Below, in pieces: positions 15,603 through 33,976 of a stretch of 46,416 nt of DNA. Every line of letters begins with the position of its first letter. Position 1 is the first letter of the stretch. This DNA comes from a virus: positions 1 to 46,416 of the IMG/VR virus record IMGVR_UViG_3300042691_045046. The stretch is one strand, 5' to 3'. A program made the position numbers and the translations under genes. The notes beneath the pieces were generated by a model. That model was not told the origin of the DNA, searched no databases, and worked only from the letters and a program-made list of their open reading frames with translations.

Positions 15603-18600
15603 ATGGCAATATCATACTCAGGATCTTTTGCAGCAGCTAACAATAAAGTAGCAGGTACCTCTCTTTTATTTACTTCTACTAAAAATATCCCTTCAGGAAG
15701 TCTAGCAATAATATTTGTAGGAATAGACAACCCAGGAACAGGTAATAATACAAACTTTATTACTAGTGTAACAGATAATGGAGCTGCATATAACTTTTTA
15801 CAAGGTAATGGATTCAATAATACAGTAAGGACTATAGCAACACAATCTGATGGTAAAATATTAGTTGGTGGTGATTTTTCTGCTTATGATGGGCAATTTA
15901 TTAACTATATTGCTCGTTTACATACAAACGGGATTTTAGATACTAGTTTTACTCCACCACAAAATATAAATGGGCCTGTATTTAAAATAATTATACAACC
16001 TAATGAAACAGGATCTATTTTAACTAATGGTGTTTTTTCTGTTGGTCCTTCTCCAAATATTTCAAGAGTATCAGATGGTGGAGGTGCTACTGGAGATAGT
16101 CAAAATGCTGCTTTACTTGCTGGAGGAAGTACTGGAAGTGGTGCACTTAGCTGTACTGAAGAATTTAATGGATCTACCTGGATAAATGGAGGAAGTATGA
16201 TTAATGCTAGAGGCAATCCTTCACTTACTGGTACTCAAAATGCTGCTTTAGCAGGAGGATTTGACTCCATTGTAAATCGCTTTACTGAGGAATACGATGG
16301 TACTACTTGGGCTGCTGGAGGACTTACAATTGGTGATAATATACGAGGAGGAATAGGAGGCACGGTAAATGCTGCTGTAGCACAAATAAGTTATAGTCCT
16401 ACCAATATACAAGAATATGATGGTACTTCTTGGACAGCAGCAAATCCTATGAGCACTCTTAGAAATAGTTCCATAGTTGGTACTCAAAATGCCGCTTTAG
16501 CACCAGGTGGTATTCAAGATGCTACTACTCTGGCTGTAACTGCTACAGAAGAATATAATGGAACTACCTGGGCAGGTGGAGGATCCCTACCCATTAGTAC
16601 ATATAATAATCTATCAGTTGGAATTCAAAATAATGCTTTAACTATAGGAGGACAAAATGAATTTTCTGTTCAGCGCACTAATAGTTCTTTATATAATGGC
16701 ACTGTTTGGACAACAGATTCTACTATAATTGGGAGCGGCATTGGTGGTAGTAACCAAGGATCTGGTACTAGTAATTTAGCTTTATTTGTCAATGGTGATA
16801 AGTTTCTTGCAGGTTCATGCACTGTTTTAGAATATAACGCTACAAATGTATGCCTTGACACTTCAGAAAAAATAATAGCTGCAGGATCTTTTACAGGAGG
16901 TGCTGCCCGTATGGATCTAAATGGTAATATAGATGTATCATTTAATTGTGGCTCAGCATTTAATAATACTGTATGTACCGTAATTATACAAGATGTTACA
17001 GAATATACAGCTAGTATTAATAATATATGGACAGCTGGAGGTGCTATGATTACTGCAAGACATGCCTTAGCAGGAGCTGGTACTCAAAATGCAACTGTAG
17101 CTTTTGGAGGAAATATTGTTAATACTACAGGAAGATGTACTGAAGAATACGATGGTACTACTTGGTCATCAAGTAATAATTTAATTAATGGTCTATTTTA
17201 TCCTGGAGGAGCTGGTACTCAAAATGCTGCTTTAGCTTTTGGAGGGTCTTCAGGATCATTTATATTATCATGTACCGAGGAATACGATGGTACTACTTGG
17301 ATAGCAGGAGGATCAATGGGAAATGCTTCAGCTTGCTTAGCAGGAGCTGGTACTCAAAATGCTGCTTTAGCTTTTGGAGGACAATCAGGATCACTTTTAT
17401 CATGTACCGAGGAATACGATGGTACTACTTGGACAGCAGGAGGAAGTTTAAACACTGCTAGATGTACTTTGGCAGGAGCTGGTACTCAAAATGCTGCTTT
17501 AGCTTTTGGAGGAATTTGTACTATTTCTCCTACTATAGTCACTCCTTTCACTGAAATATATGATGGTACTACTTGGACTTTTGCAGATAGTTTAAATAAT
17601 GCAAGATGGGCATTAGCAGGAGCTGGTACTCAAAATGCTGCTTTAGCTTTTGGAGGAGCTTCAGGACCAATATTATCATGTACAGAACAATATAATGGTA
17701 CTGTTTGGGAAGGTAGTTTACCTTTAATTAATACAAAATATCTAACCGCTGGAGGCACTGGTACCCAAAATTGCGCTTTGTCTTTTGGAGGACTCTCAGG
17801 AACATCATTATCATGTACTGAAGAATATGGTACTTTTCAAAATACTTATACTACTAAAATTATATTTGGTGGTCTTTTTACTAGCTATAGTGGTTCTACT
17901 TCTAATGGTATTGCTCGCATTAATGGAAATGGAACATTAGATACTTCATTTAATACAGGCGCTGGTTTTAGCACTGCTGATGTAAGAAACTACCAGTTCT
18001 ATAGTTCATCAACATGCTTATTAGCAGTAGGTAATTTCACCTCTTATTCAGGTTCAGCTCGTAACAGGATTGCTCTTCTTAATGCAACTAATGGTACCCT
18101 TATTCCTACTTCTTCATTTAATATAGGAGCCGGATTTAATTCTGCTGTTAACGATCTAGCTGTTCAATCTGATAATAAAATAGTAGCTGTAGGAGCCTTT
18201 ACAACATATTCAGGCTCAAATGTAAATCGTATTGCACGTATTAATACTACAGGATTAATAGATTCTGGATCAACTTTCAATACAGGGGCTGGATTAAATA
18301 ATACAGGAAGTGTTGTAAAATACTATACATCTGGCTCTACTGATGTTATACTAATTGGAGGTATCTTTACTACCTATTCAGGATCAACCCAAAGTGGTTC
18401 TGTTCGAATATTACCTAGTGGCTCTAGAGATACTGACTTTAATATAGGCTCTGGTTTTGGCACAACAATAGGTGCTAATGATTATTTGATTCGGCCTGAT
18501 GGGAAAATAATAGCAATAGGAGGATTTACCAGATATTCATCATCCTTTACTCCTTTTCCCAATCGCATAATCCAGCTTAATCCTAATGGCTCAGTTGATG

Positions 18601-19178
18601 CTAATAGAATTGGAGGAACTTGGTCAAAAGTAAGAGAATATTCTTCAAATGATGCAGCGGCTGCTGGTTCTACTCTAGCAATGTTTTATTTAACCTCTTC
18701 TGGTTATGTGCCCATTGGTACTTCTTTTACTGCTTCTTTAACTAGTTCTGTTGTTGCAAAAGCAGCAAGTGGATTAATATTTAACACTGACCGGGCAGCT
18801 ATTGTATACACAGGTTCAGTAACATCTTCTGCAGCTGGTGGTACTTCTCAACCTATTCGTATAAATTTAGCTAACTTAACTAGTGGCAGTGGTAACTACC
18901 TATTTATAAGAGGTATTGCATTCGAAAATGCCGATAATCAGGTTACTCTTACCCCAACTTCTCAATATAGTACTGATGTAACATCAAATGCTGGTACTCA
19001 AGGTGGAACTGCAGCTACAAACCAAAGTGTTAGGGTTGAATATAGAATATTAACTACATCTTCATATTTTTCAAATCCCACCTCGTCTGTAGCAGCTAGT
19101 AATGCATCTATTTTTTGGACATTCTATGAGACAGTAATTGCTGCTAGAGGTAGAACATATTATATTTTACTAGATTAA
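15603..19178 (+). CDS. Fibre-region protein with nested beta-propellers
   Basis: 1191 residues, probably a virion adhesin. Three levels are visible. (1) Residues 1-66 end in SVTDNGAAYNF and residues from about 1005 begin TWSKVREYSSNDAAAAGSTL. Together they read like one interrupted beta-sandwich domain ('SVTDxxGNTWxKVREY'). (2) Between them lie seven delta-60-type (DUF5122) repeats; the first reads VRTIATQSDGKILVGGDFSA, ending LDTSF. (3) Repeats two and three are each split between 'IIQ' and 'KII' by about 288 residues of kelch-like blades (about 133-421 and 464-751). Their signature is GTQNAALAFGG plus CTEEYDGTTW, six blades each. The kelch blades of insert 2 are nearly identical in DNA. It follows the collagen-like fibre by 13 bases with an AAGTTATG start context. 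Confidence 0.8.
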   Translation: MAISYSGSFAAANNKVAGTSLLFTSTKNIPSGSLAIIFVGIDNPGTGNNTNFITSVTDNGAAYNFLQGNGFNNTVRTIATQSDGKILVGGDFSAYDGQFINYIARLHTNGILDTSFTPPQNINGPVFKIIIQPNETGSILTNGVFSVGPSPNISRVSDGGGATGDSQNAALLAGGSTGSGALSCTEEFNGSTWINGGSMINARGNPSLTGTQNAALAGGFDSIVNRFTEEYDGTTWAAGGLTIGDNIRGGIGGTVNAAVAQISYSPTNIQEYDGTSWTAANPMSTLRNSSIVGTQNAALAPGGIQDATTLAVTATEEYNGTTWAGGGSLPISTYNNLSVGIQNNALTIGGQNEFSVQRTNSSLYNGTVWTTDSTIIGSGIGGSNQGSGTSNLALFVNGDKFLAGSCTVLEYNATNVCLDTSEKIIAAGSFTGGAARMDLNGNIDVSFNCGSAFNNTVCTVIIQDVTEYTASINNIWTAGGAMITARHALAGAGTQNATVAFGGNIVNTTGRCTEEYDGTTWSSSNNLINGLFYPGGAGTQNAALAFGGSSGSFILSCTEEYDGTTWIAGGSMGNASACLAGAGTQNAALAFGGQSGSLLSCTEEYDGTTWTAGGSLNTARCTLAGAGTQNAALAFGGICTISPTIVTPFTEIYDGTTWTFADSLNNARWALAGAGTQNAALAFGGASGPILSCTEQYNGTVWEGSLPLINTKYLTAGGTGTQNCALSFGGLSGTSLSCTEEYGTFQNTYTTKIIFGGLFTSYSGSTSNGIARINGNGTLDTSFNTGAGFSTADVRNYQFYSSSTCLLAVGNFTSYSGSARNRIALLNATNGTLIPTSSFNIGAGFNSAVNDLAVQSDNKIVAVGAFTTYSGSNVNRIARINTTGLIDSGSTFNTGAGLNNTGSVVKYYTSGSTDVILIGGIFTTYSGSTQSGSVRILPSGSRDTDFNIGSGFGTTIGANDYLIRPDGKIIAIGGFTRYSSSFTPFPNRIIQLNPNGSVDANRIGGTWSKVREYSSNDAAAAGSTLAMFYLTSSGYVPIGTSFTASLTSSVVAKAASGLIFNTDRAAIVYTGSVTSSAAGGTSQPIRINLANLTSGSGNYLFIRGIAFENADNQVTLTPTSQYSTDVTSNAGTQGGTAATNQSVRVEYRILTTSSYFSNPTSSVAASNASIFWTFYETVIAARGRTYYILLD
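17073..17810 (+). repeat. Tandem kelch-blade repeats, insert 2
   Basis: Near-identical units of 132-144 bases. The phrase GGAGCTGGTACTCAAAATGC recurs at 17073, 17208, 17343, 17475 and 17619, and a diverged copy lies near 17752. Spacings of 135, 135, 132 and 144 are all multiples of three. AATACGATGGTACTACTTGG also recurs. High DNA identity points to recent duplication or recombination. Confidence 0.88.
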
Positions 19179-19506: not shown

Positions 19507-20184
19507 ATGGAAGAAAATAATCAATTAGCTATTACTGAAGATCTAAAACACATTTTAGCTGTTTTAAAACCGGGTGATGCACAAGAAATTCTCCGTTTAA
19601 AGGATGAATTAGCTGATAATTGGAACAAAAAACAAATCTTTAGAACAGAAACTGAAATGCGCGTTTCAGTTCTCAATGATGGTAAATTCCCAACACCAGC
19701 AGCCAAATACTGGCAATCAGTTAGAGAAATGTCAGCACACTTTGATGCTATGATGAATCTTTCATTTGATATGAGACGCAGTGAAGTTGAGCGCCTCAAA
19801 TTAGAAAAAAAAATGAAAGAAGCTGAAGAAGCAGATGATCAACTTGAAATTATGTCTCTACAAATTGATTTAGATCAGAATCTATACAATAAAGCTTGTA
19901 TGGAACAAGTAGCTCACGATCGTGTTCGTGAAATTAAAACTTGGTCTAAATTAAAAACTGAATTGGATGATGGATCATTTGATACACAAGAGGTAAATAC
20001 ACATCAAGCAGTCAGCCTACACCATCGTTTAGCATACAGAGCTAGCGCACTAAATGAACATTCAGACCCAACTGAAGTAGCTAATGTAATGGGCCAATTA
20101 CAGACAATGGAACGTTTGAAACAACAAAATGCTTTAACTCATGAACAAGTTATGGCACAAAAACAGTTACAAAATAAGCAGTAA
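19507..20184 (+). CDS. Unknown helical protein
   Basis: Not recognised. 225 residues, strongly helical and charged. Residues 95-120 (RRSEVERLKLEKKMKEAEEA) and 170-225 have coiled-coil character, and the C-terminus is Gln-rich (QVMAQKQLQNKQ). No catalytic motif, membrane segment or cysteine cluster was seen. The start context is TCTGTTATG, like several neighbours. It overlaps the next gene by one base (TAATG), which ties it to the oxygenase-like genes. It could be an assembly factor or chaperone for the fibres; no sequence motif proves this. Confidence 0.75.
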   Translation: MEENNQLAITEDLKHILAVLKPGDAQEILRLKDELADNWNKKQIFRTETEMRVSVLNDGKFPTPAAKYWQSVREMSAHFDAMMNLSFDMRRSEVERLKLEKKMKEAEEADDQLEIMSLQIDLDQNLYNKACMEQVAHDRVREIKTWSKLKTELDDGSFDTQEVNTHQAVSLHHRLAYRASALNEHSDPTEVANVMGQLQTMERLKQQNALTHEQVMAQKQLQNKQ

Positions 20185-20768
20185 TGCAATTTATATATTC
20201 AAATCCTAAGGCTTTAGATCCTGGGTTTTGTGAAGAGGTTATAGATTTATTTGAGAAATCTCCACTAAAACATCCTGGTGCTTTTAGATATAATGAAGAA
20301 GTTGTGCAAAAGTACGACATAAAAAAATCAATGGATATTTCCTTTGATCCCTCTTTTCTACAACATCCTGATTGGGGGAAACCTCTAAGATATTTAGTTG
20401 ATGTTGTTGAAGAAAATGTATCAAAATATATTTTTAAATATGAGCAAGCATTCCAAAAAATGGATAACTTTAGGCTAGATACTTTATTTAACATGCAGCG
20501 ATACGAACCTGGAGAAGCCTTCTATGGTTGGCACTGTGAAAGAGCAGGCCTACTGGCTTCAGGTAGAGTGTTAGTTTGGATGGCTTATCTCAATACTGTT
20601 ACTGATAATGGAGGAACCCAATTCTACTATCAAAACCATATTGAACAACCAGAACAAGGTAAATTATTAATTTGGCCTACTGATTGGACTCATACTCATA
20701 GAGGTATCCCCTCATTAACACAAACAAAATATATTTTTACTGGATGGTATACACATTATAAAAAATAG
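20184..20768 (+). CDS. 2-oxoglutarate/Fe(II) oxygenase, P4H-like
   Basis: 194 residues with the double-stranded beta-helix pattern of 2OG-Fe(II) dioxygenases. The proximal iron ligands are probably H117 and E119 in GWHCERA, a 'HxD/E' motif. Between them and the distal motif lies VLVWMAYLNTVTDNGGTQFY, the usual prolyl-hydroxylase-like strand pair. The distal histidine is H172 in THTHRGIPS, and the 2-oxoglutarate-binding basic residue is probably the Lys in TKYIFTGW. The expected role is hydroxylation of a protein or small-molecule substrate using O2 and 2-oxoglutarate. The substrate is unknown. Fibre collagen-like repeats lack proline, so collagen-type prolyl hydroxylation of those tracts is excluded. 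It starts on the preceding stop codon. Confidence 0.82.
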   Translation: MQFIYSNPKALDPGFCEEVIDLFEKSPLKHPGAFRYNEEVVQKYDIKKSMDISFDPSFLQHPDWGKPLRYLVDVVEENVSKYIFKYEQAFQKMDNFRLDTLFNMQRYEPGEAFYGWHCERAGLLASGRVLVWMAYLNTVTDNGGTQFYYQNHIEQPEQGKLLIWPTDWTHTHRGIPSLTQTKYIFTGWYTHYKK

Positions 20769-20770
20769 TT

Positions 20771-21358
20771 ATGGAATTTAAGGTTTTTGAACAATTATGG
20801 TTTGCAATTCCTGTTTGGGAATGCCCTGTTTCTGGGATTGATAATGATGAAATTAAACAATACTGCTTAAAAATAAGAGAAAAAAAACCTGGTGTTGTTA
20901 TTTCTAATAGAGGAGGATGGCACAGCAACGAATTACTCTTCCCAGTGCCTGAATCACTTCAAACACTAATTGATGATATGACTGTGTTTGTAAACGATGT
21001 TTGTTATCGCTATACAGGCACACAATTAAAATTTGGCAATTTATGGATTAATATTAATGGTTATCATGACTATAATTTACTCCATGATCATCAAAAAAGT
21101 GTATTATCTGGGGTGTATTATGTAGATGTACCTGATAAAAATATGGGTGATTTAGTATTGCATAGAGGAGATAATGCTGAATTCTTCTTAAAAGATGTTA
21201 ATGAACCAACAATGGCAAATGCTCTTAGTTGCATTAAACAAGCCAAAACATCAACCTTTTATCTATTTCCTAGTTGGATTAAACATCATGTTGAACGTAA
21301 TGAAAGCCATAAAGAAAGAATATCTGTTGCTTTTAATTTTGTTCCTTTAAATGCCTAA
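20771..21358 (+). CDS. 2OG-Fe(II) oxygenase family protein (type 5-like)
   Basis: 195 residues. It fits the putative 2OG-Fe(II) oxygenase family common in cyanophages (PF13759-like). It has LWININGYHDYNLLHDHQKS, then VLSGVYYVDVP, then FYLFPSWIKHHVERN and HKERISVAFNF. The metal ligands are probably in H105-D106-H107 and at H172 or H173, with R183 binding 2-oxoglutarate. In cyanophages these proteins are widespread but their substrates are unknown. It follows the P4H-like gene by two bases with a TAGTTATG start context, so the two oxygenase-like proteins are co-expressed and could act in sequence. Family assignment is good; the reaction is not known. Confidence 0.8.
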   Translation: MEFKVFEQLWFAIPVWECPVSGIDNDEIKQYCLKIREKKPGVVISNRGGWHSNELLFPVPESLQTLIDDMTVFVNDVCYRYTGTQLKFGNLWININGYHDYNLLHDHQKSVLSGVYYVDVPDKNMGDLVLHRGDNAEFFLKDVNEPTMANALSCIKQAKTSTFYLFPSWIKHHVERNESHKERISVAFNFVPLNA

Positions 21359-21369
21359 TAAACATAATA

Positions 21370-22332
21370 ATGGAAGGATACACTTACCAAGCAAAGAAAA
21401 AAAATAGCAATATTACTGCCTCCACCCCAGAAATATTAACAACAGAAAAATACCTAGTATGGCATATTGATGGAGGATTAGGTAAAAACATTGCCTCAAC
21501 TGCCCTATGCCAAACAATAAAAGAAATCCACCCAGATAGAAAACTGATTATGGTTGTTTCTCATCCAGAATGCTTTTTAAATAACCCATTTATTGATAGA
21601 GTTTATTTCTCAGGAAGTAAATCCTATTTTTATGATGATTATATAAAAGATAAAGATACTCTATTCTTTAAACAAGAACCATACAACCAAACTGACCATA
21701 TTCTGCGCAAAAAACACCTAATAAATAATTGGTGTGATATTTTAAATATACCTTATACAGGCCAACAACCACAGATATTTGTTAATATGGCTCAGAAGAT
21801 GACTACTGGGTTGTGGTTGAGAAATAAACCAACAATGGTTTTACAAACCAATGGTGGTCCACTTACAGGTCAAAAATATGGTTATTCTTGGGCTAGAGAC
21901 ATTCCCTATGAATATTCTCAACAAATAGTAGATCAATATAAAAATGATTATCACATATTTCAAGTAACTAGACCTGATTCACAAAAACTAGATGGTGTTG
22001 AAGTAATAGATAAGGCAATGACTAATATGGAATTATTTGCTCTGATGGTCAATGCTAAAAAACGTGTATTGATTGATTCTTGTCTACAACATGCTGCGGC
22101 TGCATTTAAACTTCCATCAACTGTATTATGGATTGGTACATCACCTATTGTATTCGGATATAATATTCATAACAACATTGTAGTAAATCCTCCAAAACAA
22201 GGTGGTCTTAAATTAATTGATTCATATATGTTTGATTATAATTTAGATGGAATATTACACGAATGTCCATATATAGATGCAAGCGAGATGTTTAATATAA
22301 ACGATATTTATGACAGTATAAACAAACAATAA
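21370..22332 (+). CDS. Glycosyltransferase family 9-like (heptosyltransferase fold)
   Basis: 320 residues, GT-B fold, resembling ADP-heptose glycosyltransferases of family GT9. The N-terminal domain begins YLVWHIDGGLGKNIASTALC, with QTIKEIHPDRKLIMVVSHPECFLNNPFIDRVYF. This is the GT9 'GGLGDxxxxTPxxxALKxxxPxxxIxxxxxPxxxxLxxNPxID' layout. The C-terminal domain has TMVLQTNGGPL, then MTNMELFALMVNAKKRVLIDSCLQHAAAAFKLPSTVLW, the family's 'DSxxxHxAAAxxxPxVxLW' donor-site region. It lies two genes before the FkbM methyltransferase and shares a TAATG overlap with the next small gene. The likely donor is a nucleotide-activated heptose or related sugar; the acceptor is unknown. Confidence 0.8.
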   Translation: MEGYTYQAKKKNSNITASTPEILTTEKYLVWHIDGGLGKNIASTALCQTIKEIHPDRKLIMVVSHPECFLNNPFIDRVYFSGSKSYFYDDYIKDKDTLFFKQEPYNQTDHILRKKHLINNWCDILNIPYTGQQPQIFVNMAQKMTTGLWLRNKPTMVLQTNGGPLTGQKYGYSWARDIPYEYSQQIVDQYKNDYHIFQVTRPDSQKLDGVEVIDKAMTNMELFALMVNAKKRVLIDSCLQHAAAAFKLPSTVLWIGTSPIVFGYNIHNNIVVNPPKQGGLKLIDSYMFDYNLDGILHECPYIDASEMFNINDIYDSINKQ

Positions 22333-22517
22333 TGTATATAGTATTAATGCAATTTATCCCTGAAAATGATCAAATCTGGGTAGCCAAACTAAACCCAAAC
22401 GACCCAGAATATATCTATCCTACTGAACAAGAAGCAATAGATAAAGCAGCTGAATTACAAGCAGCTGACCCAACAGGTAGGCAGTATAGAGCAAACCCTG
22501 TTAATAGTGGGGCTTAA
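22332..22517 (+). CDS. Small unknown protein in glycosylation block
   Basis: 61 residues, not recognised. It reads IVLMQFIPENDQIWVAKLNP, then YIYPTEQEAIDKAAELQAAD: two beta-strands followed by an Ala-rich helix. It has no cysteines or membrane segment. It is coupled to the GT9-like gene by a TAATG overlap, so it is probably translated, possibly as a small partner. Function unknown. Confidence 0.6.
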   Translation: MYIVLMQFIPENDQIWVAKLNPNDPEYIYPTEQEAIDKAAELQAADPTGRQYRANPVNSGA

Positions 22518-22518
22518 A

Positions 22519-22526
22519 ATATTTAA
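22519..22526 (+). promoter_or_regulatory. Weaker late-type motif ATATTTAA
   Basis: Seven-of-eight match to ATATTTAT, just after a stop codon and 8 bases before the FkbM gene ATG. Confidence 0.3.
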
Positions 22527-22534
22527 AGTAAGTT

Positions 22535-23527
22535 ATGATACAAAGTTATAGTTTTTGGAGTGAATGGGATATTAATGAACAAAAAATATGTTATGGTACT
22601 TATCAAGACATTAATGAGCCTTTAATAGTATGCTTGAAAGAATACATGTCTGATGTAGTATTGTGGTCACGTGATTATGATGTTTTTCCTAAAGATGTTG
22701 CTTTTTGGATGATCCCTATATCTAAAAATGTATACAACTATGAAACTGATCCTTATTTTTCCGGAGTAAAAATCTGTATTTATAAAAAATTAGATGAAAA
22801 GAAAATATATGAGTATCCTTACTTTACTAAGTTTGTAGATTTACCTCGAGTTTCATTAAGCAATACTATTCCTTATCATTATAATTATAGTGAGTTTTTT
22901 ATTGAAAATAAGTATAAAAGGTTTTTTAAAGATAAAAAATTTAAAAATGTTATAGATGTAGGAGCAAATATAGGAATATTTACTGAGTATTTGCTATATC
23001 ATGATATTACTAATCAAATAACTTCAATAGAGTGTGATAGCAAAGCACTAAATGACCTAAATAAAAACTTCAAAAAAGACCCTAGAGTCAATATTATTGC
23101 TAAAGCACTTCACTATGAAGAAACATCACTTTCCTTCTACCAATCAGAAAACAACCCAGTAATTAGTAGTACTATTCATCCTGATAGACTTAAAAACCAT
23201 AATGTTGGCATTAAAGGAGATAAAGAAGTAAAAGTAGAAACTATTACCATAGAAGATTTATTATCAATTTACGGTTTTATAGATTTATTAAAGATAGATA
23301 TTGAAGGGGGAGAATATGATGTTATAGAAAATACTGATTCTAAATGGTTTTCTTATATTAATAATGTTTTTATAGAATGTCATTTTTTTGAAGAAAACTA
23401 TAAAGAAAAATACAATAATATTTTAACTAAATTAAAATCTGTTGGTTACAACATAGAGGAATATGAAGAAAATCAAAGTACTACTTACTTAGGAGGTAGT
23501 GAAATTATATTTGGATCTAAAAAATAA
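22535..23527 (+). CDS. FkbM-family methyltransferase with N-terminal beta domain
   Basis: 330 residues. The C-terminal two thirds is an FkbM-type SAM-dependent methyltransferase. Motif I is VIDVGANIGIFTEYL (about 140-154), the acidic SAM ligand follows in TSIECDSKAL, and the family signature LLKIDIEGGEYDVIEN is at about 250-265. FkbM enzymes O-methylate sugar or polyketide hydroxyls, so this enzyme probably caps a glycan. The N-terminal 110 residues are a separate beta-rich module with FWMIPISKNVYNYETDPYF. A similar module (WWIIPTPLHIYNFAQNPDF) precedes the FkbM domain of the next gene, and both are followed by a 'NYxExFIxNKY' linker. The start context is AAGTTATG. Confidence 0.85.
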   Translation: MIQSYSFWSEWDINEQKICYGTYQDINEPLIVCLKEYMSDVVLWSRDYDVFPKDVAFWMIPISKNVYNYETDPYFSGVKICIYKKLDEKKIYEYPYFTKFVDLPRVSLSNTIPYHYNYSEFFIENKYKRFFKDKKFKNVIDVGANIGIFTEYLLYHDITNQITSIECDSKALNDLNKNFKKDPRVNIIAKALHYEETSLSFYQSENNPVISSTIHPDRLKNHNVGIKGDKEVKVETITIEDLLSIYGFIDLLKIDIEGGEYDVIENTDSKWFSYINNVFIECHFFEENYKEKYNNILTKLKSVGYNIEEYEENQSTTYLGGSEIIFGSKK

Positions 23528-23534
23528 AAAACAT

Positions 23535-23542
23535 ATATTTAA
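23535..23542 (+). promoter_or_regulatory. Weaker late-type motif ATATTTAA
   Basis: Seven-of-eight match to ATATTTAT within ATATATTTAATATA, 6 bases before the ATG at 23549. Confidence 0.3.
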
Positions 23543-23548
23543 TATATT

Positions 23549-26500
23549 ATGAAAGTACTATTTCTAGCCCCTCATCTATCCACAGGAGGAATGCCTCAAT
23601 ACCTTTACAAACAAATGGAAGTTTTAAGTGAAAGTTGTGAAGTATGGTGTATTGAATGGGATAATATTACCGGAGGTGTTTTAGTTGTTCAACGTAACCG
23701 AGTAGCTAACCTATTAGGAGATAAATTAATTACCCTAGGAGAACCCAAAGAAAAACTATTTGAATACATTGAAAAAATAAATCCAGATGTTATTCATCTT
23801 CAGGAAATTCCTGAAATGTTTATGTCATACGATTTAGCTGTAAAATTATATAATCCAAATAGAAAATATAAGATAGTTGAAACTTCTCATGATTCTAGTT
23901 TTGATATTTCAAATAAAAAACATTTTCCTGACCATTTTGCAATGGTTAGTCAATATCAAATTGAAGCCTATAAATCATTAGATATACCTTGTGAATTAGT
24001 AGAATACCCAATTGAGTATAAAACAAGAACAAAATCTAGAGAAGAATTATTAGCTGAATTAGGATTAGATCCTAATAAAAAACATGTTATTAATGTTGGT
24101 TTATTTACCTCTAGAAAAAACCAAGCTGAAGTTGTTGAATATGCTAGGCAAATGCAAGATTATCCTATTCAATTCCACTTTATTGGTAATCAAGCAGATA
24201 ATTTTAAATATTATTGGGAACCCATAATGAAGGATTTTCCTTCTAATTGTAAATGGTGGGGAGAAAGAAGCGATGTAGATACATTCTATCAAATGGCTGA
24301 TTTGTTCTTATTTACCTCTAGGGGGCATATCAATGACAAAGAAACAATGCCATTAGTGATTAGAGAAGCTATTAGCTGGAAAGTTCCTTCCTTAATATAC
24401 AATTTAGACGTATATTTAAATTACTTTAACAAATATGATAATATTGAATATCTAGATTTTAATAATAAATTAAAAAATATAGAAAAAATCTTAACAAAAC
24501 TAAATATAACAGGTAATCAAGTCAACAATTATTTTGATATACAATATGAAGGAGCAAGCAATAAATTTGCTATAACCTACAAAAAGAATGAGCCAGCAAA
24601 ATATAAAATTTCTATAAAAGATAAAGATTCTAATGCTCCTATATATTGGTTTTCAACTGAATTTAATAATGAAGGAGATCATTGGTGGATAATACCAACA
24701 CCTCTTCATATTTACAACTTTGCACAGAATCCTGATTTTGGTTCTTTCTTAGTAGAATTCTATGATGAAAACAATAATTTTTTGTTTGATAAAACAATAT
24801 TTTTAAAAGAAATTAAAAAACAAAAATTAAAATTAAATCTAAAAAGTCCATTTGATTGTTTGTTTACTAACTATAATGAAATGTTTATAGATAATAAATA
24901 TGATTGTTATGAGTTAGATAAAATGGAAACCGTTTTTGATATTGGGGCTAATTGTGGATTATTTTCACTTTTAGCAATTGAAAAAGGAGCAAAAAAAGTA
25001 TATGCATTTGAACCAAATCAAGAATCTTTAGTTAATTTAAATCAAATAGCAAAAGGATTAAATATAGAAGTAATAGATAAAGCAGTTTATACTACAGATG
25101 AAGACCTAACATTCTATATTGATCCAAACAACACCACAATTGGAAGTATTTCAGAAGATCATATAATAAATGGTGGAAGTAAGGTAGAAAAAATAACAGT
25201 ACCCGCAATATCTCTTAAAACTTTTATAGAACAAAACAATATAGAAAAAATATCATTGTTAAAAATGGATATTGAAGGTGCCGAGTATGATATTATAGAA
25301 AATCTTGAAGATGAAGTTTTTGAAAAAATAGATAACTTTCTTATAGAATACCATGATAATGAAGGTGAAAAAGTAGAAAAACTAATTCAAACATTAGTTA
25401 AAAAGGGATTTGATATTGATCAAATTAGAAATCAAAACTCCAAAAATAATGATGATATATTAGAATCATACAAATCTTCCCCTCTTGGAACCATATTTGC
25501 TAAGAAATCCCCAGAAGAAAAATTATTAACTGTAATTATACCTACATATAATCATGAAAAATATATTGAACAGTGTGTTGATAGTGCTTTGATGCAAAAA
25601 ACATTGTTTAATTTTAATATTTTAATATCTGATGATCGCTCAACAGATAATACATGGAATATTGTGCAAAAATATAAAGATATTCCAAATGTAATTGTTA
25701 AACAAAATGAAGTAAATTTAGGTCCAACCCCTAAAAGACTTCATGCTGTTTTAAAAGAATCCAAATCGGAATATATTACTTTATTAGATGGAGATGATTA
25801 TTATGTTGATGAAAATAAATTACAAAAACAGGTAAATTTTCTAAAAAACAATAAAGAATACTCTATTTACAGTGTTGGATACTACCAGAAAGAACTTGAT
25901 GATTCTAACTTTATGAATATCAATTACTATGGTGTAAAAGAAGAAGTTATTTTAAGAGATAACATGGAGGCTAATTATGTTTCTTTTGGCTTTATGTTTA
26001 GAAATAGTCTTATTAGAGATATGGAATTTCCTGATTGGTATTTCCATGAAGATCTTTTTGATGGATACTGGGCTTTAAATAATATACTTTTAGAAAAAGG
26101 AAAAGGAAGAAATGATAAGTGGGTAGGTGGAGTTTATAGAATAACACCAAATGGAGCTTTTGGAGAAAAAAGTAAAGAATGGAAAGATGAAGTATCTGAA
26201 AAACAAAGTCGAATAATTAAATCTGCTTTTCCTAATGTAAATAAAGACTTTTTAGTAAATGAATCTAATTTGAATTTACAAGATGTATATGATAAACATT
26301 TTTCAGTACAATATAAAGAAGTTCCCTATCTAAAAAGCCCTATGGATTATGTACTTCACCAAATGATAATTATGTCTCTAAAACCAGATTTAATTATAGA
26401 AATTGGGACCTATAGAGGTGGTGGTGCTTTATATTATGCTGATTTATTGTATTTGTTAGGAAAAGGAGAAGTACATACTATAAATGTAGGAAATGAAATA

Positions 26501-26869
26501 GTAGATCAAAAGGTATTTAATCATGGTCAAATAAGATTTTTCTATGATGGTTTTGAAAACTATGATTTAAATCTTACTAAGGGATTTGAAAAAATACTAG
26601 TTATAGATGATGCATCCCATAGCTATGTAGACACACTGAGATCTCTGAATAAGTTTAGTAAAGTTGTATCTAAAGATTCTTACTTTATTGTTGAAAAAGG
26701 AGTAGTTGATTTTGTTAAAACCTCAGTCAATTACAACGGTGGACCACGTAGAGCTATTGATGAGTTTTTACAAACTAATTCTAATTTTGTTATAGATAGA
26801 AACTGGTGTGACTACTTTGGTACTAATGCTACTTTCAATTCAGATGGATATTTAAAAAGAATTAATTAA
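23549..26869 (+). CDS. Four-enzyme fusion: GT4, FkbM, GT2, CmcI-like
   Basis: 1106 residues with four predicted catalytic domains. Residues 1-320: GT-B/GT4-like transferase (MKVLFLAPHLSTGGMPQYL; VINVGLFTSRKNQAEVVEYA; MPLVIREAISWKVPSLIY). Residues 330-425: beta module WWIIPTPLHIYNFAQNPDF. Residues 440-640: FkbM methyltransferase (VFDIGANCGLFSLLA; LLKMDIEGAEYDIIEN near 572). Residues 655-890: GT-A/GT2 transferase (TVIIPTYNHEKYIEQCVDSA; ITLLDGDDYY, the DxD-type metal site near 746). Residues 920-1106: CmcI/cephalosporin-hydroxylase-like Rossmann domain (LIIEIGTYRGGGALYYADLL; KILVIDDASHSYVDTLRSL; DSYFIVEKGVVD). Such an array would build and methylate an oligosaccharide without releasing it between steps. 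Acceptor unknown. The one-base TAATG overlap links it to the next gene. Confidence 0.85.
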   Translation: MKVLFLAPHLSTGGMPQYLYKQMEVLSESCEVWCIEWDNITGGVLVVQRNRVANLLGDKLITLGEPKEKLFEYIEKINPDVIHLQEIPEMFMSYDLAVKLYNPNRKYKIVETSHDSSFDISNKKHFPDHFAMVSQYQIEAYKSLDIPCELVEYPIEYKTRTKSREELLAELGLDPNKKHVINVGLFTSRKNQAEVVEYARQMQDYPIQFHFIGNQADNFKYYWEPIMKDFPSNCKWWGERSDVDTFYQMADLFLFTSRGHINDKETMPLVIREAISWKVPSLIYNLDVYLNYFNKYDNIEYLDFNNKLKNIEKILTKLNITGNQVNNYFDIQYEGASNKFAITYKKNEPAKYKISIKDKDSNAPIYWFSTEFNNEGDHWWIIPTPLHIYNFAQNPDFGSFLVEFYDENNNFLFDKTIFLKEIKKQKLKLNLKSPFDCLFTNYNEMFIDNKYDCYELDKMETVFDIGANCGLFSLLAIEKGAKKVYAFEPNQESLVNLNQIAKGLNIEVIDKAVYTTDEDLTFYIDPNNTTIGSISEDHIINGGSKVEKITVPAISLKTFIEQNNIEKISLLKMDIEGAEYDIIENLEDEVFEKIDNFLIEYHDNEGEKVEKLIQTLVKKGFDIDQIRNQNSKNNDDILESYKSSPLGTIFAKKSPEEKLLTVIIPTYNHEKYIEQCVDSALMQKTLFNFNILISDDRSTDNTWNIVQKYKDIPNVIVKQNEVNLGPTPKRLHAVLKESKSEYITLLDGDDYYVDENKLQKQVNFLKNNKEYSIYSVGYYQKELDDSNFMNINYYGVKEEVILRDNMEANYVSFGFMFRNSLIRDMEFPDWYFHEDLFDGYWALNNILLEKGKGRNDKWVGGVYRITPNGAFGEKSKEWKDEVSEKQSRIIKSAFPNVNKDFLVNESNLNLQDVYDKHFSVQYKEVPYLKSPMDYVLHQMIIMSLKPDLIIEIGTYRGGGALYYADLLYLLGKGEVHTINVGNEIVDQKVFNHGQIRFFYDGFENYDLNLTKGFEKILVIDDASHSYVDTLRSLNKFSKVVSKDSYFIVEKGVVDFVKTSVNYNGGPRRAIDEFLQTNSNFVIDRNWCDYFGTNATFNSDGYLKRIN

Positions 26870-27954
26870 TGGATAATTTTATAATTCATCTTCATCTTTA
26901 TATTACTAATAAGGAAGCAGAATTAACAGCCTTTATTAATATTAAAAATCTTAAAGAACATGGATTTAAAATATTAATAACGTCACCCTTTAATTTGCCT
27001 GATTATTTTTATCCACATATAGATTATTTTTTATTAGATAGAGAAAATCAAATATTTAAAGAAAAATATAAGGATATTGAACCTATTATTTGGTGGAATC
27101 AAATAGATCCTAATATGACTTTTAATTTTCTTATAGATGGATTTCAAACCCATGGATTAGCTGTTTTAAGATCTATGATAAAAGGATCAAGTATAGCTAA
27201 AGCATTAGGATATGAGTATATTATTCGATTTGAATATGATGATCTTTTTGGGAAATATTCTTTAAATAAAATAAGTGAAATTTGTAGTTTTGTAAAAGAT
27301 AGTGATTTAAATTTTTATTTATTTAAAAATCACTATAATGATTCTAAAAAAGATGTATCTACTCATTTAATGTTTTATAAAAGTCAAAAATTTTTAGATA
27401 TATTTGAACCTATAAAAGATGAAAATGATTATATTTCCTTTTTAGAAAAAATGGAAATACCCAAAAAATCCTTAATATTGGAAGAATTCATTTATAGAGC
27501 AATAGATTTATTTGGAGAAAAGATCCATTATGAAAATGGATTTGCAATGAAAACAGAATTTTATGACACTCAATTCAATACCCATCAAGCCCCTTTAGGA
27601 GTAACCAAGGGAGTCCTCTCAGATGTTATGAGAATAAAACGAAATTCTATATATGATCCTTATAAGCTTTGTCTTGTTTGTAGAAATGTAGATTCACAAA
27701 CTCCAATTTGTATTTACTTTGATGTATTTGATCATGATCAAAACTTATTATACACAATGTCTTTTCAATTAGATTGTATAAATGAATGGAAATTAGATTA
27801 TGTTCATGAAGTTAAAAATGTAGGCTCTATTAAAATAAGACACGGAGATGATCCACATCATAAAACTTTTTTGGTTTTAAATAATGAAGATGGAGTTACT
27901 ATTAGAAATGCTGACCTAGATGGAGCTTTACCTGAAATTACTTTCAAAATATGA
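26869..27954 (+). CDS. Putative GT-A-like glycosyltransferase, unassigned
   Basis: 361 residues, no firm family. The N-terminus (FIIHLHLYITNKEAELTAFI, then INIKNLKEHGFKILITSPF) and the middle YEYIIRFEYDDLFG (about 114-127) fit a Rossmann-like GT-A fold. In this fold an acidic pair (E-x-D-D) could bind the sugar nucleotide and metal. LILEEFIYRAIDLFGEKIHY (about 204-223) resembles a GT catalytic-acid region. The C-terminal 100 residues (CLVCRNVDSQTPICIYFDVF, then SIKIRHGDD) look like an extra beta-sandwich. The gene is flanked on both sides by transferases, with one-base and four-base overlaps, so it belongs to the same glycan pathway. Assignment as a transferase is inferred from pattern and context. 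Confidence 0.6.
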   Translation: MDNFIIHLHLYITNKEAELTAFINIKNLKEHGFKILITSPFNLPDYFYPHIDYFLLDRENQIFKEKYKDIEPIIWWNQIDPNMTFNFLIDGFQTHGLAVLRSMIKGSSIAKALGYEYIIRFEYDDLFGKYSLNKISEICSFVKDSDLNFYLFKNHYNDSKKDVSTHLMFYKSQKFLDIFEPIKDENDYISFLEKMEIPKKSLILEEFIYRAIDLFGEKIHYENGFAMKTEFYDTQFNTHQAPLGVTKGVLSDVMRIKRNSIYDPYKLCLVCRNVDSQTPICIYFDVFDHDQNLLYTMSFQLDCINEWKLDYVHEVKNVGSIKIRHGDDPHHKTFLVLNNEDGVTIRNADLDGALPEITFKI

Positions 27955-29051
27955 AATTTACTATAGTTACTAGTTTTTATAATGGTTCTCATTTTATTTC
28001 TAGATTATATGAGAGAATAAAAGCCCAAACTTATACAAATTGGGAATGGATAGTTACTGATGATTTTTCCTCAGATGCAGAAGACGCTAAAGAAATTCTA
28101 TCATATATTTCTAGTAGAGATAGAAAAATAAAATATGTAGAGCAATCTTCTAAAAAAGAAATGTTTTATAACCCTCAAAATTTTTGTAAAGAGGCAGAAA
28201 TAATTATACAAATGGATCAAGATGATTATCCTCTACCTAAAGCATTAGAAGTATATCATCATTTCTTTACTAAATTTCCTGATACTATAGTAATTACTGG
28301 AGCCGGAAATTCATTTAGAGAAGATGGAAACTGGATGAATTTTCATAATCCTGATTTTGTAGATCAAAAAAATATGACCTGTGGTTATTTAACCTATTTA
28401 AGAGCTTGGAGAAATAACCCTAATATTAATTATGATTTTAATCCAAACGATTGGATGAAATATTACTATAATGACTTATCTATACTATGCACCCTAGAAG
28501 AACAAGGCAAAATACTCCATCTCCCTAGAAACTTATATTATTATAATTATAGAGAAAATTCTATATCTCATACATTTTATGCTAATGAAGCTGTAGAAGA
28601 AGGACAGGAATTAATAAGAAAAGTTAATGCTAGACGTATTAATAAAGATGTAGATACGTTTAATAGATATTTTGAACCTATACATAAAGAATCATTATGT
28701 TTGATGGATCATAACTTAAATGATGTTAAAGTTCAACAAAAAATAGTTTATTTAGACAAACAATTAGATTTTAAGAAACATTCATTACTTAAAGAATTAT
28801 TTTTTGATCATGATTTAAACATAAATAAAATAGATGGAAATGAAGATGCTTTGATTTGCGTATTAAGGGATAAATCTGATTTAGATTATTTTTTTGATAT
28901 AGATAATAAATATAATATAAAAAACAGCCAACTAGTTATTTGGAATCAAGCCAAAAATCCTTATACTAATATTTTACTAGATAAAGTGTCTCAAAAATAC
29001 CAATTCTGCTACTCAGCAGCTTATCAATTAATTATCAACTTAATAAAATGA
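27951..29051 (+). CDS. Glycosyltransferase family 2
   Basis: 366 residues. The first 220 form a GT-A/GT2 domain: FTIVTSFYNGSHFISRLYER, then AQTYTNWEWIVTDDFSSD (nucleotide-sugar binding), and IIQMDQDDYPLPKALEVY with the DxD-type metal site near residues 89-92. The usual acceptor-side 'E-D' motif is less clear; LSILCTLEEQGKILHLPRNLYYYNYRENSIS (about 172-205) occupies its place. The last 140 residues are a less conserved helical and beta tail. It starts inside the stop codon of the previous gene (ATGA) and ends in the same way with the next one, so three genes are translationally coupled. It probably adds a hexose or similar sugar to the cassette's glycan. Confidence 0.85.
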   Translation: MKFTIVTSFYNGSHFISRLYERIKAQTYTNWEWIVTDDFSSDAEDAKEILSYISSRDRKIKYVEQSSKKEMFYNPQNFCKEAEIIIQMDQDDYPLPKALEVYHHFFTKFPDTIVITGAGNSFREDGNWMNFHNPDFVDQKNMTCGYLTYLRAWRNNPNINYDFNPNDWMKYYYNDLSILCTLEEQGKILHLPRNLYYYNYRENSISHTFYANEAVEEGQELIRKVNARRINKDVDTFNRYFEPIHKESLCLMDHNLNDVKVQQKIVYLDKQLDFKKHSLLKELFFDHDLNINKIDGNEDALICVLRDKSDLDYFFDIDNKYNIKNSQLVIWNQAKNPYTNILLDKVSQKYQFCYSAAYQLIINLIK

Positions 29052-31135
29052 AAATAATTAATGTCACGCCGGGCTTATTACCAATCCCCCCTAATGGTTG
29101 GGGTGCAGTAGAAAAAATTATATGGGAAACACATAATGCTTTATTAGAATTAGGGTATAATTCTCAAATTTTATATTTGGACGAAGTAAAAGATTATGAT
29201 GTAGTTCATATCCATGTTGCTAATCTAGCTAATTTAGCACATGAGCGTGGTATTCCTTATTATTTCACTATGCATGACCATCATGCCTACCTATACGGAA
29301 AAGATTCTCAAGTATATAAAGAAAATCTACAAGCAATAAAAAATGCTAAAAAAGCATTTGTACCTGCTAAATTTTTAATTGATTATTTTGAAGGAATACC
29401 TGAATATTTTTCCCATGGAGTAAATACAGACTATTTCACCCCAGGGGAATTTAAAGAACATAAATTATTGTGTGTAGCAAATAATGGTTTTATTCATGAT
29501 CAAGCTGAAGATAGAAAAGGTTTTGGGTATGCTATTGAAGCAGCAAAACAATTAAATTTGCCTATTACAATAGCAGGTCCTATTAATAATAAAAAGTATT
29601 TTGATACTTTTCCTCCTGATTATGATAAACTTACTATTCTTTATGATCTTAATGAGGAACAACTAAGAAAATTATATCAAGAACATAGTGTATTTATTCA
29701 TGCTTCTATATTAGAAGCAGGTCATCCTAATTTAACATTGTTAGAAGCATTAGCTTCTGGTTTACCTATAATAGGAACATATGAAAACAAAGATGGATTA
29801 GATGGAATGGTTATAGTAGAAAGAGATGTAGATCAAATAGTAAAAGCTTTCAATAAAATTACTGCTAGACAACTAAAGTATGACTTATATTCATTTAAGG
29901 CAAGGCAACAGGCATTACATTTATCTTGGAAAAACAGAACAAAAGATTTATTAAAAAAATATGAGACAAATATGAAAGATCAATTAATATCTATTTATAA
30001 ATCAACAAAAAAGTTAGGGATACCTTCAAAAGTAAACGTTCCTAAATTTAATATTAATTTTATTAATGGTCCGTTTGCTGAAATATTAGATTCACCTTAT
30101 AAAAAACATAAAGTAAGTTTTATTAATAAAAAATCTAATGTAGTAGAATATTCTCAAGAAATAAGTACTAATTGTTGGGTTAGAACAAGCAAACAATATT
30201 ATATAGATTGGAAAATAAAAATAGAAGATGAGAATGGTAATTTAATATATCAACATGATTTAGATCTTAAAGACAAAAGAGTATATATTGCTTTAGATTC
30301 TAAATCATTAGGTGATACCTTAGCTTGGTTTCCTTATGTTGATGAATTTAGAAAAAAACATAACTGCAAAGTTATATGCTCTACATTCCATAACTATTTC
30401 TTCCAATCACAATACCCAGAAATTGAATTTGTTAAACCTGGAGATACTGTTTATAACTTATATGCAATGTATGTTATAGGGTGGTTTTATAATAGTGATA
30501 ATGTTGTTGATTTTAATAAAAATCCCTTTGATATTAAACAACAAAATCTTCAAAAAACAGCATCTGACATTTTAGGATTAGATTTTGTAGAAGTAAAACC
30601 AAAGTTAAAAAAACCATTAGTTGTAAAGAAAAAACAAGTTGCAATTGCTATACATAGTACAGCACAAGCAAAATATTGGAATAATCCTACTGGATGGCAG
30701 GAAATAGTTGATTGGTGTAATGAACAAGGATATGAAGTTGTACTATTATCTAAAGAAGAAGATGGTTATATGGGTAATAGAAATCCAACCGGAATTAAAT
30801 ACCCTGATTCTTTTGATATGGAAACAACTGTAAAAACACTTAATGAATCAGAAGTATTTATAGGTATAAGTAGTGGATTAAGTTGGTTATCATGGGCTAC
30901 CGATACCCCTACTGTGGTTATTTCTGGATTTACTGAAGAATATACCGAACCTGATAGCTGCTATCATATTAGCGCCCCAGAAGGTAAATGTAGAGGATGC
31001 TTTAATTCCCATAGACTAGACGCTGGTGATTGGAACTGGTGCCCAGTACATAAAGGAACACAACGTCAATTTGAATGCTCTAAAGAAATATCTGCAGATA
31101 GAGTAATAGAAACTTTAAAAACAATATTAAAATAA
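29048..31135 (+). CDS. GT4 fused to autotransporter-type O-heptosyltransferase
   Basis: 695 residues with two transferases. Residues 1-310: GT4-like domain (IPPNGWGAVEKIIWETHNAL; VVHIHVANLANLA; SVFIHASILEAGHPNLTLLE, then ALASGLPII, the E-x7-E donor motif). Residues about 330-695 match the bacterial autotransporter strand-loop-strand O-heptosyltransferase family (TibC/AAH type): a beta-rich start (NGPFAEILDSPYKKHKVSFI), DSKSLGDTLAWFPYVDEF, NLYAMYVIGWFY, AIHSTAQAKYWNNPTGWQEI and EVFIGISSGLSWLSWATDTP. Its cysteine finger is C648, C651, C665 and C677 (CRGCFNSHRLDAGDWNWCP, then QFEC), which binds iron in TibC. Family members transfer heptose to serines in repetitive surface proteins. Here the obvious phage-encoded candidates are the Ser/Thr-rich fibres. 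The fusion to GT4 could extend the glycan. Confidence 0.9.
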   Translation: MKIINVTPGLLPIPPNGWGAVEKIIWETHNALLELGYNSQILYLDEVKDYDVVHIHVANLANLAHERGIPYYFTMHDHHAYLYGKDSQVYKENLQAIKNAKKAFVPAKFLIDYFEGIPEYFSHGVNTDYFTPGEFKEHKLLCVANNGFIHDQAEDRKGFGYAIEAAKQLNLPITIAGPINNKKYFDTFPPDYDKLTILYDLNEEQLRKLYQEHSVFIHASILEAGHPNLTLLEALASGLPIIGTYENKDGLDGMVIVERDVDQIVKAFNKITARQLKYDLYSFKARQQALHLSWKNRTKDLLKKYETNMKDQLISIYKSTKKLGIPSKVNVPKFNINFINGPFAEILDSPYKKHKVSFINKKSNVVEYSQEISTNCWVRTSKQYYIDWKIKIEDENGNLIYQHDLDLKDKRVYIALDSKSLGDTLAWFPYVDEFRKKHNCKVICSTFHNYFFQSQYPEIEFVKPGDTVYNLYAMYVIGWFYNSDNVVDFNKNPFDIKQQNLQKTASDILGLDFVEVKPKLKKPLVVKKKQVAIAIHSTAQAKYWNNPTGWQEIVDWCNEQGYEVVLLSKEEDGYMGNRNPTGIKYPDSFDMETTVKTLNESEVFIGISSGLSWLSWATDTPTVVISGFTEEYTEPDSCYHISAPEGKCRGCFNSHRLDAGDWNWCPVHKGTQRQFECSKEISADRVIETLKTILK

Positions 31136-32266: not shown

Positions 32267-33976
32267 ATGGCAGAAAAAATCTTATCTCCTGGCGTATTCC
32301 AAAATGAATCAGATCAATCATTGGTTCAAAGAGGTATACAAGGTACGGCAACCGCTATTGTTGGTCCAACAGTAATGGGTCAACCATTTATTCCTACCTA
32401 TGTAACTTCTTATAGCGAATATGTATCCAAATTCGGAGAAACATTCAAAAGTGGTAGTTATTATTACGAATACCTTACATCATTAGCTGCTAAGGATTTC
32501 TTTCAAAATGGTGGTCAAACATTACTTGTAACTAGAATTATTAGTGGAACCTCCAATCTTAGTACCTATGCAAGTTCTTCAGTAGCTGATATTAATGATG
32601 ATACAGTTGATAATTCATTTGAACTTGAAACTTTAGCATGGGGTAACCAAATGAATAATAGTAGCGGTACTGAAGTTAGTGGTGCTTTGCCAAACGGTAG
32701 TGCAACCAATGTTCGCTGGGAAGTTACAACTGTAAATACAGGAAGTGGTACATTTACTTTAACAGTTCGTGCTGGTAATGATAATAATGCTCAAAAGAAT
32801 TATTTAGAAACTTGGGCTAATTTATCATTAGATCCAATGTTACCTAATTATATTTCTCGTGTAATTGGTGATTTAAAACCTGTATATGATGCTACAAATA
32901 ATATCATCAACTATAATGGTTCTTATGCTAATGCTTCTCAATATGTTCGTGTTAAATCTGTATCCAAACCACACATAGATTCAATTGATAATAATGGTAG
33001 CTTCAAATCAACTCAATATAGTGGTAGCTTACCAGCTGTAGGAAGTGGTTCATTTGGTGGTGGGGCTGCAGCAACAGCTAACCAGCAATTAATGAATGAA
33101 AATATCACAACAACTAATATTCAAGGATTTGCTCCTGCTGATTATGTTACTGCATTTGGTATTTTAACCAATAAGGATGAATATAAATTTAATGTATTAA
33201 TTGCTCCTGGTGTTGGTTTAGATTGTAGCGCTGCTTCACAATTAATTTCAACAGCTGAAGGTCGTGGTGATTCAATTGCCATTGTAGGTGCAGGTATTTA
33301 TGGTACTTCTATTTCATCTGCTGCTAACGCTGCTGCCGGACAATCAAGTAATTATGCAGCTTGTTACTATCCTTGGGTTCAATTATATAGCTCTGGTTTA
33401 GGTAAGGCTGTTTGGTCTCCTGCTCCTACAGTAATGGGTGGTGTATTTGCATTTAACGATCAAGTTGGTGCTGAATGGTTTGCACCTGCTGGTTTAAATC
33501 GCGGTGGTGTTCCTTCAGTATTACGTGCTGAAAGAAAATTATCTCAATCTGATCGCGATACATTATATGAAGCAAATGTTAACCCATTAGCTACATTCCC
33601 TGGAGAAGGTGTTGTAGTATTTGGCCAGAAAACATTGCAGAAAAAACAAACCGCTCTTGATCGTGTAAACGTTCGTCGTTTGTTGATTGCATTAAAAGAC
33701 TATATCGGCCAAGTAGGTAACAACTTAGTATTTGAACAAAATACAAATGTTACTCGCAATCGCTTCTTAGCTCAAGTTAACCCATACCTTGAATCAGTAG
33801 TACAACGTCAAGGTTTATATGCTTACAAAGTAGTAATGGATGATTCCAATAATACTCCTGATGTAATCGATCGTAACCAACTAGTAGGTCAGATCTATAT
33901 CCAACCAACTAAAACTGCTGAATTTATTATCTTGAACTTCAACGTACAACCAACTGGCGCTACATTCCCTGCATAG
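32267..33976 (+). CDS. gp18: Tail sheath protein, gp18-like
   Basis: 569 residues. Forms the contractile sheath around the tail tube. The N-terminus has LSPGVFQNESDQSLVQRGIQ, then GTATAIVGPTVMGQPFIPTY. This is the sheath 'SPGVxxxExDxSxxxxxxxxxxxAxVGxxxxGPxxxPxxVxS' pattern, followed by 'FxxxFGxxxxxSxYYYYLxxxxxxxFFxNGGxxLLVTRI'. The C-terminal core has LNRGGVPSVLRAERKLSQSD, INPLATFPGxGVVVFGQKT-like sequence, and NVRRLLIALKDYIGQVGNNL, then FEQNTxxTRxRFLxQVNPYLESV. These are the strands that interlock neighbouring sheath subunits. Length and order match the family. It has its own late-type motif and is followed by the tube gene. Confidence 0.95.
   Translation: MAEKILSPGVFQNESDQSLVQRGIQGTATAIVGPTVMGQPFIPTYVTSYSEYVSKFGETFKSGSYYYEYLTSLAAKDFFQNGGQTLLVTRIISGTSNLSTYASSSVADINDDTVDNSFELETLAWGNQMNNSSGTEVSGALPNGSATNVRWEVTTVNTGSGTFTLTVRAGNDNNAQKNYLETWANLSLDPMLPNYISRVIGDLKPVYDATNNIINYNGSYANASQYVRVKSVSKPHIDSIDNNGSFKSTQYSGSLPAVGSGSFGGGAAATANQQLMNENITTTNIQGFAPADYVTAFGILTNKDEYKFNVLIAPGVGLDCSAASQLISTAEGRGDSIAIVGAGIYGTSISSAANAAAGQSSNYAACYYPWVQLYSSGLGKAVWSPAPTVMGGVFAFNDQVGAEWFAPAGLNRGGVPSVLRAERKLSQSDRDTLYEANVNPLATFPGEGVVVFGQKTLQKKQTALDRVNVRRLLIALKDYIGQVGNNLVFEQNTNVTRNRFLAQVNPYLESVVQRQGLYAYKVVMDDSNNTPDVIDRNQLVGQIYIQPTKTAEFIILNFNVQPTGATFPA

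Follow-up and report, generated by a model that had tools for sequence, protein, structure and literature searches.

Gene organization and the collagen-like fibres

The window analysed here is a 46,416-nt virus record from IMG/VR that holds the structural region of an uncultured myovirus. Genes for a major head protein, PhoH and three large fibre-like proteins are followed by the locus under study and then by the tail sheath, tube and hub. This locus encodes a candidate system for glycosylation of the fibres. Its central component is a two-domain protein (29048–31135), here called the 29048 protein, in which a GT4 glycosyltransferase (approximately residues 1–330) is fused to a TibC/AAH-type O-heptosyltransferase domain (approximately residues 331–695), the proposed initiator of the glycan. 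The locus genes, 19507 to 29048 by their first nucleotides, are all co-directional and lie between fibre C and the tail sheath gene; every window feature described below is on the + strand.

Two of the fibre-like proteins are putative acceptors. Fibre A (6601–13893, 2430 aa) contains three proline-free Gly-Ser/Thr tracts of 55, 18 and 31 triplets, and fibre B (13910–15589, 559 aa) contains 114 proline-free triplets, mostly GTS. The Pfam collagen model PF01391 recognises fibre B with 162 bits (cut-off 27), and the tract of this fibre has none of the proline that favours a triple helix. When strict Gly-X-Y runs of at least four triplets are counted, fibre A contributes 312 residues and fibre B 342, a total of 654. 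An earlier reading of this DNA, made from the sequence alone (the original prediction), had placed more than 670 such residues upstream of the enzymes; the long tracts are confirmed, with the lower strict count. The X and Y positions are 86–91% Ser or Thr, and neither Pro nor Lys occurs among the 654 residues. The C-terminal part of fibre A (13438–13890) weakly resembles the Caf1 fibre protein, at an E of 0.0016 that does not reach the Pfam cut-off.

The TibC/AAH-type enzyme and its pairing with Gly-Ser/Thr tracts

The C-terminal domain of the 29048 protein scores 292.8 bits against TIGR04414 (curated cut-off 200), and its nearest solved structure is TibC (4rap, E 8.5e-58). Catalytic Asp-110, Thr-226 and Lys-230 of TibC correspond to D423, T538 and K542, and the four cysteines of the TibC iron finger to C648, C651, C665 and C677. 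These residues, together with TibC Trp-305, are kept in 67–69 of 69 phage enzymes, and the Trp is conserved in all 69, including that of the window. TibC residue 300 is the stereoselectivity position; here it is Ser, as in AAH, an enzyme that accepts both heptose stereoisomers (PMC4358343). Enzymes of the TibC/AAH family transfer heptose to Ser and form dodecamers. The likeness to these bacterial autotransporter heptosyltransferases (BAHT enzymes; TIGR04414; PMC4358343) spans the whole catalytic domain and the N-terminal domain region, and includes the catalytic Asp, the phosphate and sugar contacts and the iron finger. The phage enzyme differs in being phage-encoded, fused to a GT4 domain and set in a cassette with other glycosyltransferases and methyltransferases.

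The original prediction proposed to check whether cassettes of this kind and collagen-like fibres co-occur in related phages, and three comparisons came out in its favour. The first used 50 related records gathered by similarity to the sheath, the 19507 protein or the enzyme, and a tract was scored as (Gly-S/T-S/T)5 in DNA. A tract was present in 18 of 27 enzyme-bearing records versus 0 of 23 enzyme-free records (Fisher p 4e-7, a value that overstates independence, since many of the records are related; part of the set was chosen by the enzyme itself). The second started from contigs found by (Gly-S/T-S/T)8 alone, with contigs found by a Gly-X-Gln collagen-like pattern as controls; TIGR04414 exceeded its cut-off in 21/50 and 1/39, respectively. 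With eight weak-tract contigs dropped, the enzyme is present in 21 of 42 verified tract contigs and in 8 of the 9 that are above 100 kb.

The third comparison concerns bacterial chromosomes. Lone TIGR04414 genes (near 300–327 bits) were found at 11 loci from Methylomonadaceae, a Polaromonas metagenome-assembled genome and two other gammaproteobacterial genomes. At 10 of these 11 loci, the enzyme gene adjoins one for a small exported or lipobox-bearing (Gly-Thr/Ser-Ser/Thr)n protein. In Methylobacter, for example, the genes for a tract protein (L420 6920–7783) and an enzyme (L420 7824–9122) are neighbours. Autotransporter-type TIGR04414 genes (about 660 bits in Methylomonadaceae, plus an Anaerovibrio pair) have a tract protein beside them at 0 of 5 loci, four of which were viewed with only 1.5 kb of flank. 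In Anaerovibrio (L431 7809–10279), two such genes stand in tandem, with no Gly-X-Y protein nearby. No other sugar enzymes are in view at the tract-paired chromosomal loci, which makes the tract the simplest acceptor. In a tree, the autotransporter-type enzymes separate from the remainder, and the Methylomonadaceae enzymes fall next to the phage enzymes (support of the joining node, 0.45). What was observed directly is the identity of the domains, the conservation of residues in the active site and the iron finger, and the recurrence of the pairing in phages and bacterial chromosomes.

Among 50,697 phage records, only four carry the TIGR04414 domain. One belongs to a cultured isolate, Microcystis phage Mel-JY01; the other three are from uncultured huge phages, two of these records being of 735 kb and one of 636 kb. 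In Mel-JY01 (PP395634.1; L498 2–3052), a + strand open frame of 1016 aa with 176 triplets lies 1.7 kb before the enzyme gene. The annotation of this record misses the frame, most of which is covered by two hypothetical proteins annotated on the − strand. The 735-kb record that was searched holds over 1,200 matches to the tract pattern.

A variable cassette beside a conserved core

The glycan-enzyme genes named in the original prediction are all present, by family matches or, for the GT9-like gene and the 26869 gene, by predicted fold. The extent of the set needed revision. The predicted span of 20184–31135 does contain a cassette, and the span itself begins with two 2-oxoglutarate (2OG)-Fe(II) oxygenases that had not been listed (20184–20768, PF13640; 20771–21358, PF13759/TIGR02466). 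Relatives retrieved with the 19507 protein (19507–20184, a conserved protein of no assigned function that serves as the locus marker) retain that protein, the oxygenases and the GT9-like gene (21370–22332). Four of them (L087, L092, L095 and L097) are missing the whole stretch from FkbM through TIGR04414, and no Gly-Ser/Thr tract lies within reach. Because relatives keep the oxygenases and the GT9-like gene without the cassette, we treat these as a separate conserved core, with the 19507 gene likewise core and outside the cassette. The variable cassette proper is thus 22535–31135, in a variable slot ahead of the sheath gene (32267–33976), which forms its right-hand border. The oxygenases (also in L085, L087, L092, L095 and L097) accompany the 19507 and GT9-fold proteins whether the cassette is present or not, and several relatives have further oxygenase-like genes beside them. 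A role for the oxygenases as collagen hydroxylases of the system was considered and rejected, as they are retained in relatives that have no tracts or cassette.

The GT9-like protein has no Pfam match. An AlphaFold2 model built with 13 homologues (pLDDT 79.5) aligned by VIA-align to the GT9 enzymes 3tov (Z 21.8) and 1psw (Z 19.3), and also matched TibC. The GT9 assignment of the original prediction thus holds at the level of fold, but the gene belongs to the conserved core and shows no link to the fibres. Where TibC has LGD, GGLGK is found in all 13 homologues, with Lys for the catalytic Asp, a position judged from the motif. For this reason activity is doubtful, and the protein is possibly not a heptosyltransferase; it may be a relative of GT9 enzymes that lacks catalysis or acts in another way.

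The cassette opens with an FkbM methyltransferase (22535–23527), whose N-terminal domain recurs (E 4e-43) in the next protein, a 1106-aa fusion of GT4, this N-terminal domain, FkbM, GT2 and CmcI/rhamnosyl O-methyltransferase domains (23549–26869). We considered a domain common to all cassette enzymes and rejected it: the N-terminal domain of FkbM is the only one to recur, and no match exists between it and the N-terminal domain of the heptosyltransferase. The 26869 protein (26869–27954), listed in the original prediction as an unknown resembling glycosyltransferases, has no sequence-family match in Pfam, PHROGs or NCBIfam. Its model (mean pLDDT 62 overall) is good only in the first ~240 residues, where a GT-A fold is predicted, and the C-terminal part has no confident model. 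The model scores Z of about 13, tied across many GT-A and nucleotidyltransferase chains. The PBCV-1 capsid glycosyltransferase (2p72/2p73), a viral enzyme that acts on a virion protein, is among the nearest solved folds; given this tie and the 7–13% identity, we make no family claim. A GT2 glycosyltransferase (27951–29051, by family match) precedes the 29048 gene. The last four genes are joined by the start/stop overlaps that the original prediction described, TAATG at 26869 and ATGA at 27951 and 29048.

On the other side of the locus, fibre/adhesin C (15603–19178) consists of DUF5122 (delta-60) β-propeller repeats and not of Gly-X-Y; it is a neighbour whose membership in the system is only putative. 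In relatives, such proteins occur in several copies and at various places in the same locus.

Acceptor, donor and alternative explanations

We consider it likely, with a probability of roughly 0.7, that the 29048 enzyme belongs to a TIGR04414 subfamily with a proline-free Gly-Ser/Thr collagen-like tract as acceptor, and that it initiates glycans on fibres A and B that the other enzymes extend and methylate. The acceptor, the identity of the sugar as heptose, the roles of the other enzymes and the benefit are what we infer. Late in infection, the C-terminal domain would start O-glycans on the tracts of both fibres in the cytoplasm, before assembly, using Ser and Thr of Gly-(Ser/Thr)-(Ser/Thr) triplets instead of an autotransporter passenger. 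Extension of the glycans would then fall to the fused GT4, the GT2 and the GT-A enzymes, and their O-methylation probably to the FkbM and CmcI methyltransferases. The resulting dense sugar coat may give rigidity or protection to tracts in which no proline is available to keep a triple helix together. The original prediction had suggested helix stabilisation, shielding of the virion or altered receptor binding as possible benefits. The tracts can be likened to BclA of Bacillus spores, which carries O-glycans on Gly-X-Thr triplets of its collagen-like stalk; its GPT triplets, unlike those of the phage tracts, contain proline, and its glycan is based on rhamnose. We know of no TibC-type enzyme in BclA glycosylation.

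Most likely, the transferred sugar would be a heptose, drawn from a nucleotide sugar that the host makes. The gene for an HldE-C-like nucleotidyltransferase abuts the enzyme gene in ten phage records, and in the two of these that were examined, an HldE-N-like kinase follows. These neighbours fit a heptose donor, although all of them score below the cut-offs of their families. No HldE-like gene is present in the closest long relative (182,846 bp); supply of the donor by the phage itself was therefore rejected for this relative, which would rely on a host donor.

Several observations count against this proposal, in addition to the composition of the relatives set, the short flanks around the autotransporter-type genes and the sub-threshold HldE-like scores given above, and the missing HldE-like gene is one of them. 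In the window, the enzyme gene is 13.5 kb from fibre B. No strict tract was found in 9 of the 27 enzyme-bearing relatives; the original prediction had named a cassette without Ser/Thr-rich fibres as the case that would speak against it, and such records do exist, one of them of 133 kb, although most are fragments. The converse holds for 21 of the 42 verified tract contigs, mostly short, which have no enzyme. The 636-kb huge phage LR756504 has the enzyme and no match to the tract pattern, and at one chromosomal locus (L472/L494) no tract protein is encoded closer than about 6 kb. Finally, TibC Arg-286, an adenine contact that TibC needs (PMC4358343), is replaced by T594 in the 29048 protein and by V/T/A/I/L in 67/69 phage enzymes.

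Since Arg-286 is replaced, the donor nucleotide may differ, and we place the enzymes in a sister subfamily and not among the BAHT enzymes in the strict sense. Loss of this Arg was rejected as a marker of the tract-paired class, as two enzymes (L429 and L436) keep it yet have tract neighbours. The substitution, found in nearly all phage and most tract-paired chromosomal enzymes, is also the argument that the tract is the acceptor of a sugar other than ADP-activated heptose. This is unlikely, though it is the alternative that survives best: the Thr, Lys and Trp that contact phosphate and sugar are kept, HldE-like genes abut the enzyme gene as described above, and the same substitution occurs in Methylobacter.

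It is less probable that the enzyme glycosylates another virion protein, such as fibre C or a baseplate component, and that its pairing with tracts reflects the shared ancestry of a hypervariable tail module. The cassette and the fibres do share one variable region in which relatives differ in both, and the GT9 core travels with fibre-C-like repeats. However, the pairing recurs in bacterial chromosomes, where nothing but an enzyme gene and a tract-protein gene is involved, and also in the contigs that were selected solely by their tract.

Modification of a host surface glycan (O-antigen or similar), leading to receptor change or superinfection exclusion, appears more improbable still. Relatives of the GT2, GT4, FkbM and CmcI enzymes are common in O-antigen and exopolysaccharide clusters, and one GT2 domain weakly matches the GtrB PHROG. 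Against this, there is no membrane-embedded partner (flippase, polymerase or polyprenyl-phosphate glycosyltransferase), and no transmembrane-like segment was found in any cassette protein; the lack of a membrane-spanning protein disfavours host-surface modification. The cassette also lies among late structural genes, its last enzyme belongs to a kind that acts directly on proteins, and the lone chromosomal copies pair with a protein and not with a glycan cluster. That the glycosyltransferases modify phage DNA, as some phage enzymes do (cited in PMC12619734), merits hardly any credence, with no base-modification genes adjoining the cassette and the strongest match being to a protein O-glycosyltransferase family.

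The three co-occurrence comparisons support the claim of the original prediction that a TibC/AAH-type enzyme of the phage adds glycans to the Gly-Ser/Thr fibres of the same phage, with glycosylation itself a deduction from sequence. The system would work like that of the BAHT enzymes, minus two of their marks: Arg-286 and the autotransporter partner. The neighbours encoded near the enzyme are phage fibres or (Gly-Thr/Ser)n proteins, so that a Gly-Ser/Thr collagen-like protein takes the place of the BAHT autotransporter. Virion glycosylation has a precedent in mycobacteriophages, where phage-encoded glycosyltransferases act on the phage's own virion proteins, the reported sites being at the C-terminal ends of subunits of the capsid and the tail tube (Freeman et al. 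2023, as cited in PMC12619734); the passages of PMC12619734 on this subject mention no TibC-type enzyme or collagen-like acceptor. Our search of the open-access literature returned no relevant paper on phage heptosylation or on a collagen-like protein with a heptosyltransferase. BAHT enzymes (PMC4358343) and phage virion glycosylation (cited in PMC12619734) have been described before. The literature searched yielded no case, from phage or bacterium, in which a TibC-type enzyme is paired with a collagen-like Gly-Ser/Thr protein.

More broadly, and tentatively, with slightly less than even confidence, we suggest that phages and bacteria share an unrecognised glycosylation system in which TibC-family enzymes O-glycosylate proline-free Gly-Ser/Thr tracts and dense sugar replaces proline or hydroxyproline as what keeps the fibre together. 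It would be used on tail fibres by environmental and huge phages and on exported proteins by methanotrophs and other bacteria, with a donor that is possibly not ADP-heptose. For a family so far associated only with autotransporters, the proposal predicts a specific pair of enzyme and acceptor, and it would account for a collagen-like fibre that functions in the absence of proline; the two-gene bacterial pair and the one cultured phage make it simply testable. If it is correct, many environmental and huge phages would have sugar-coated fibres, with consequences for host recognition and for the interpretation of collagen-like phage fibres from their sequences.

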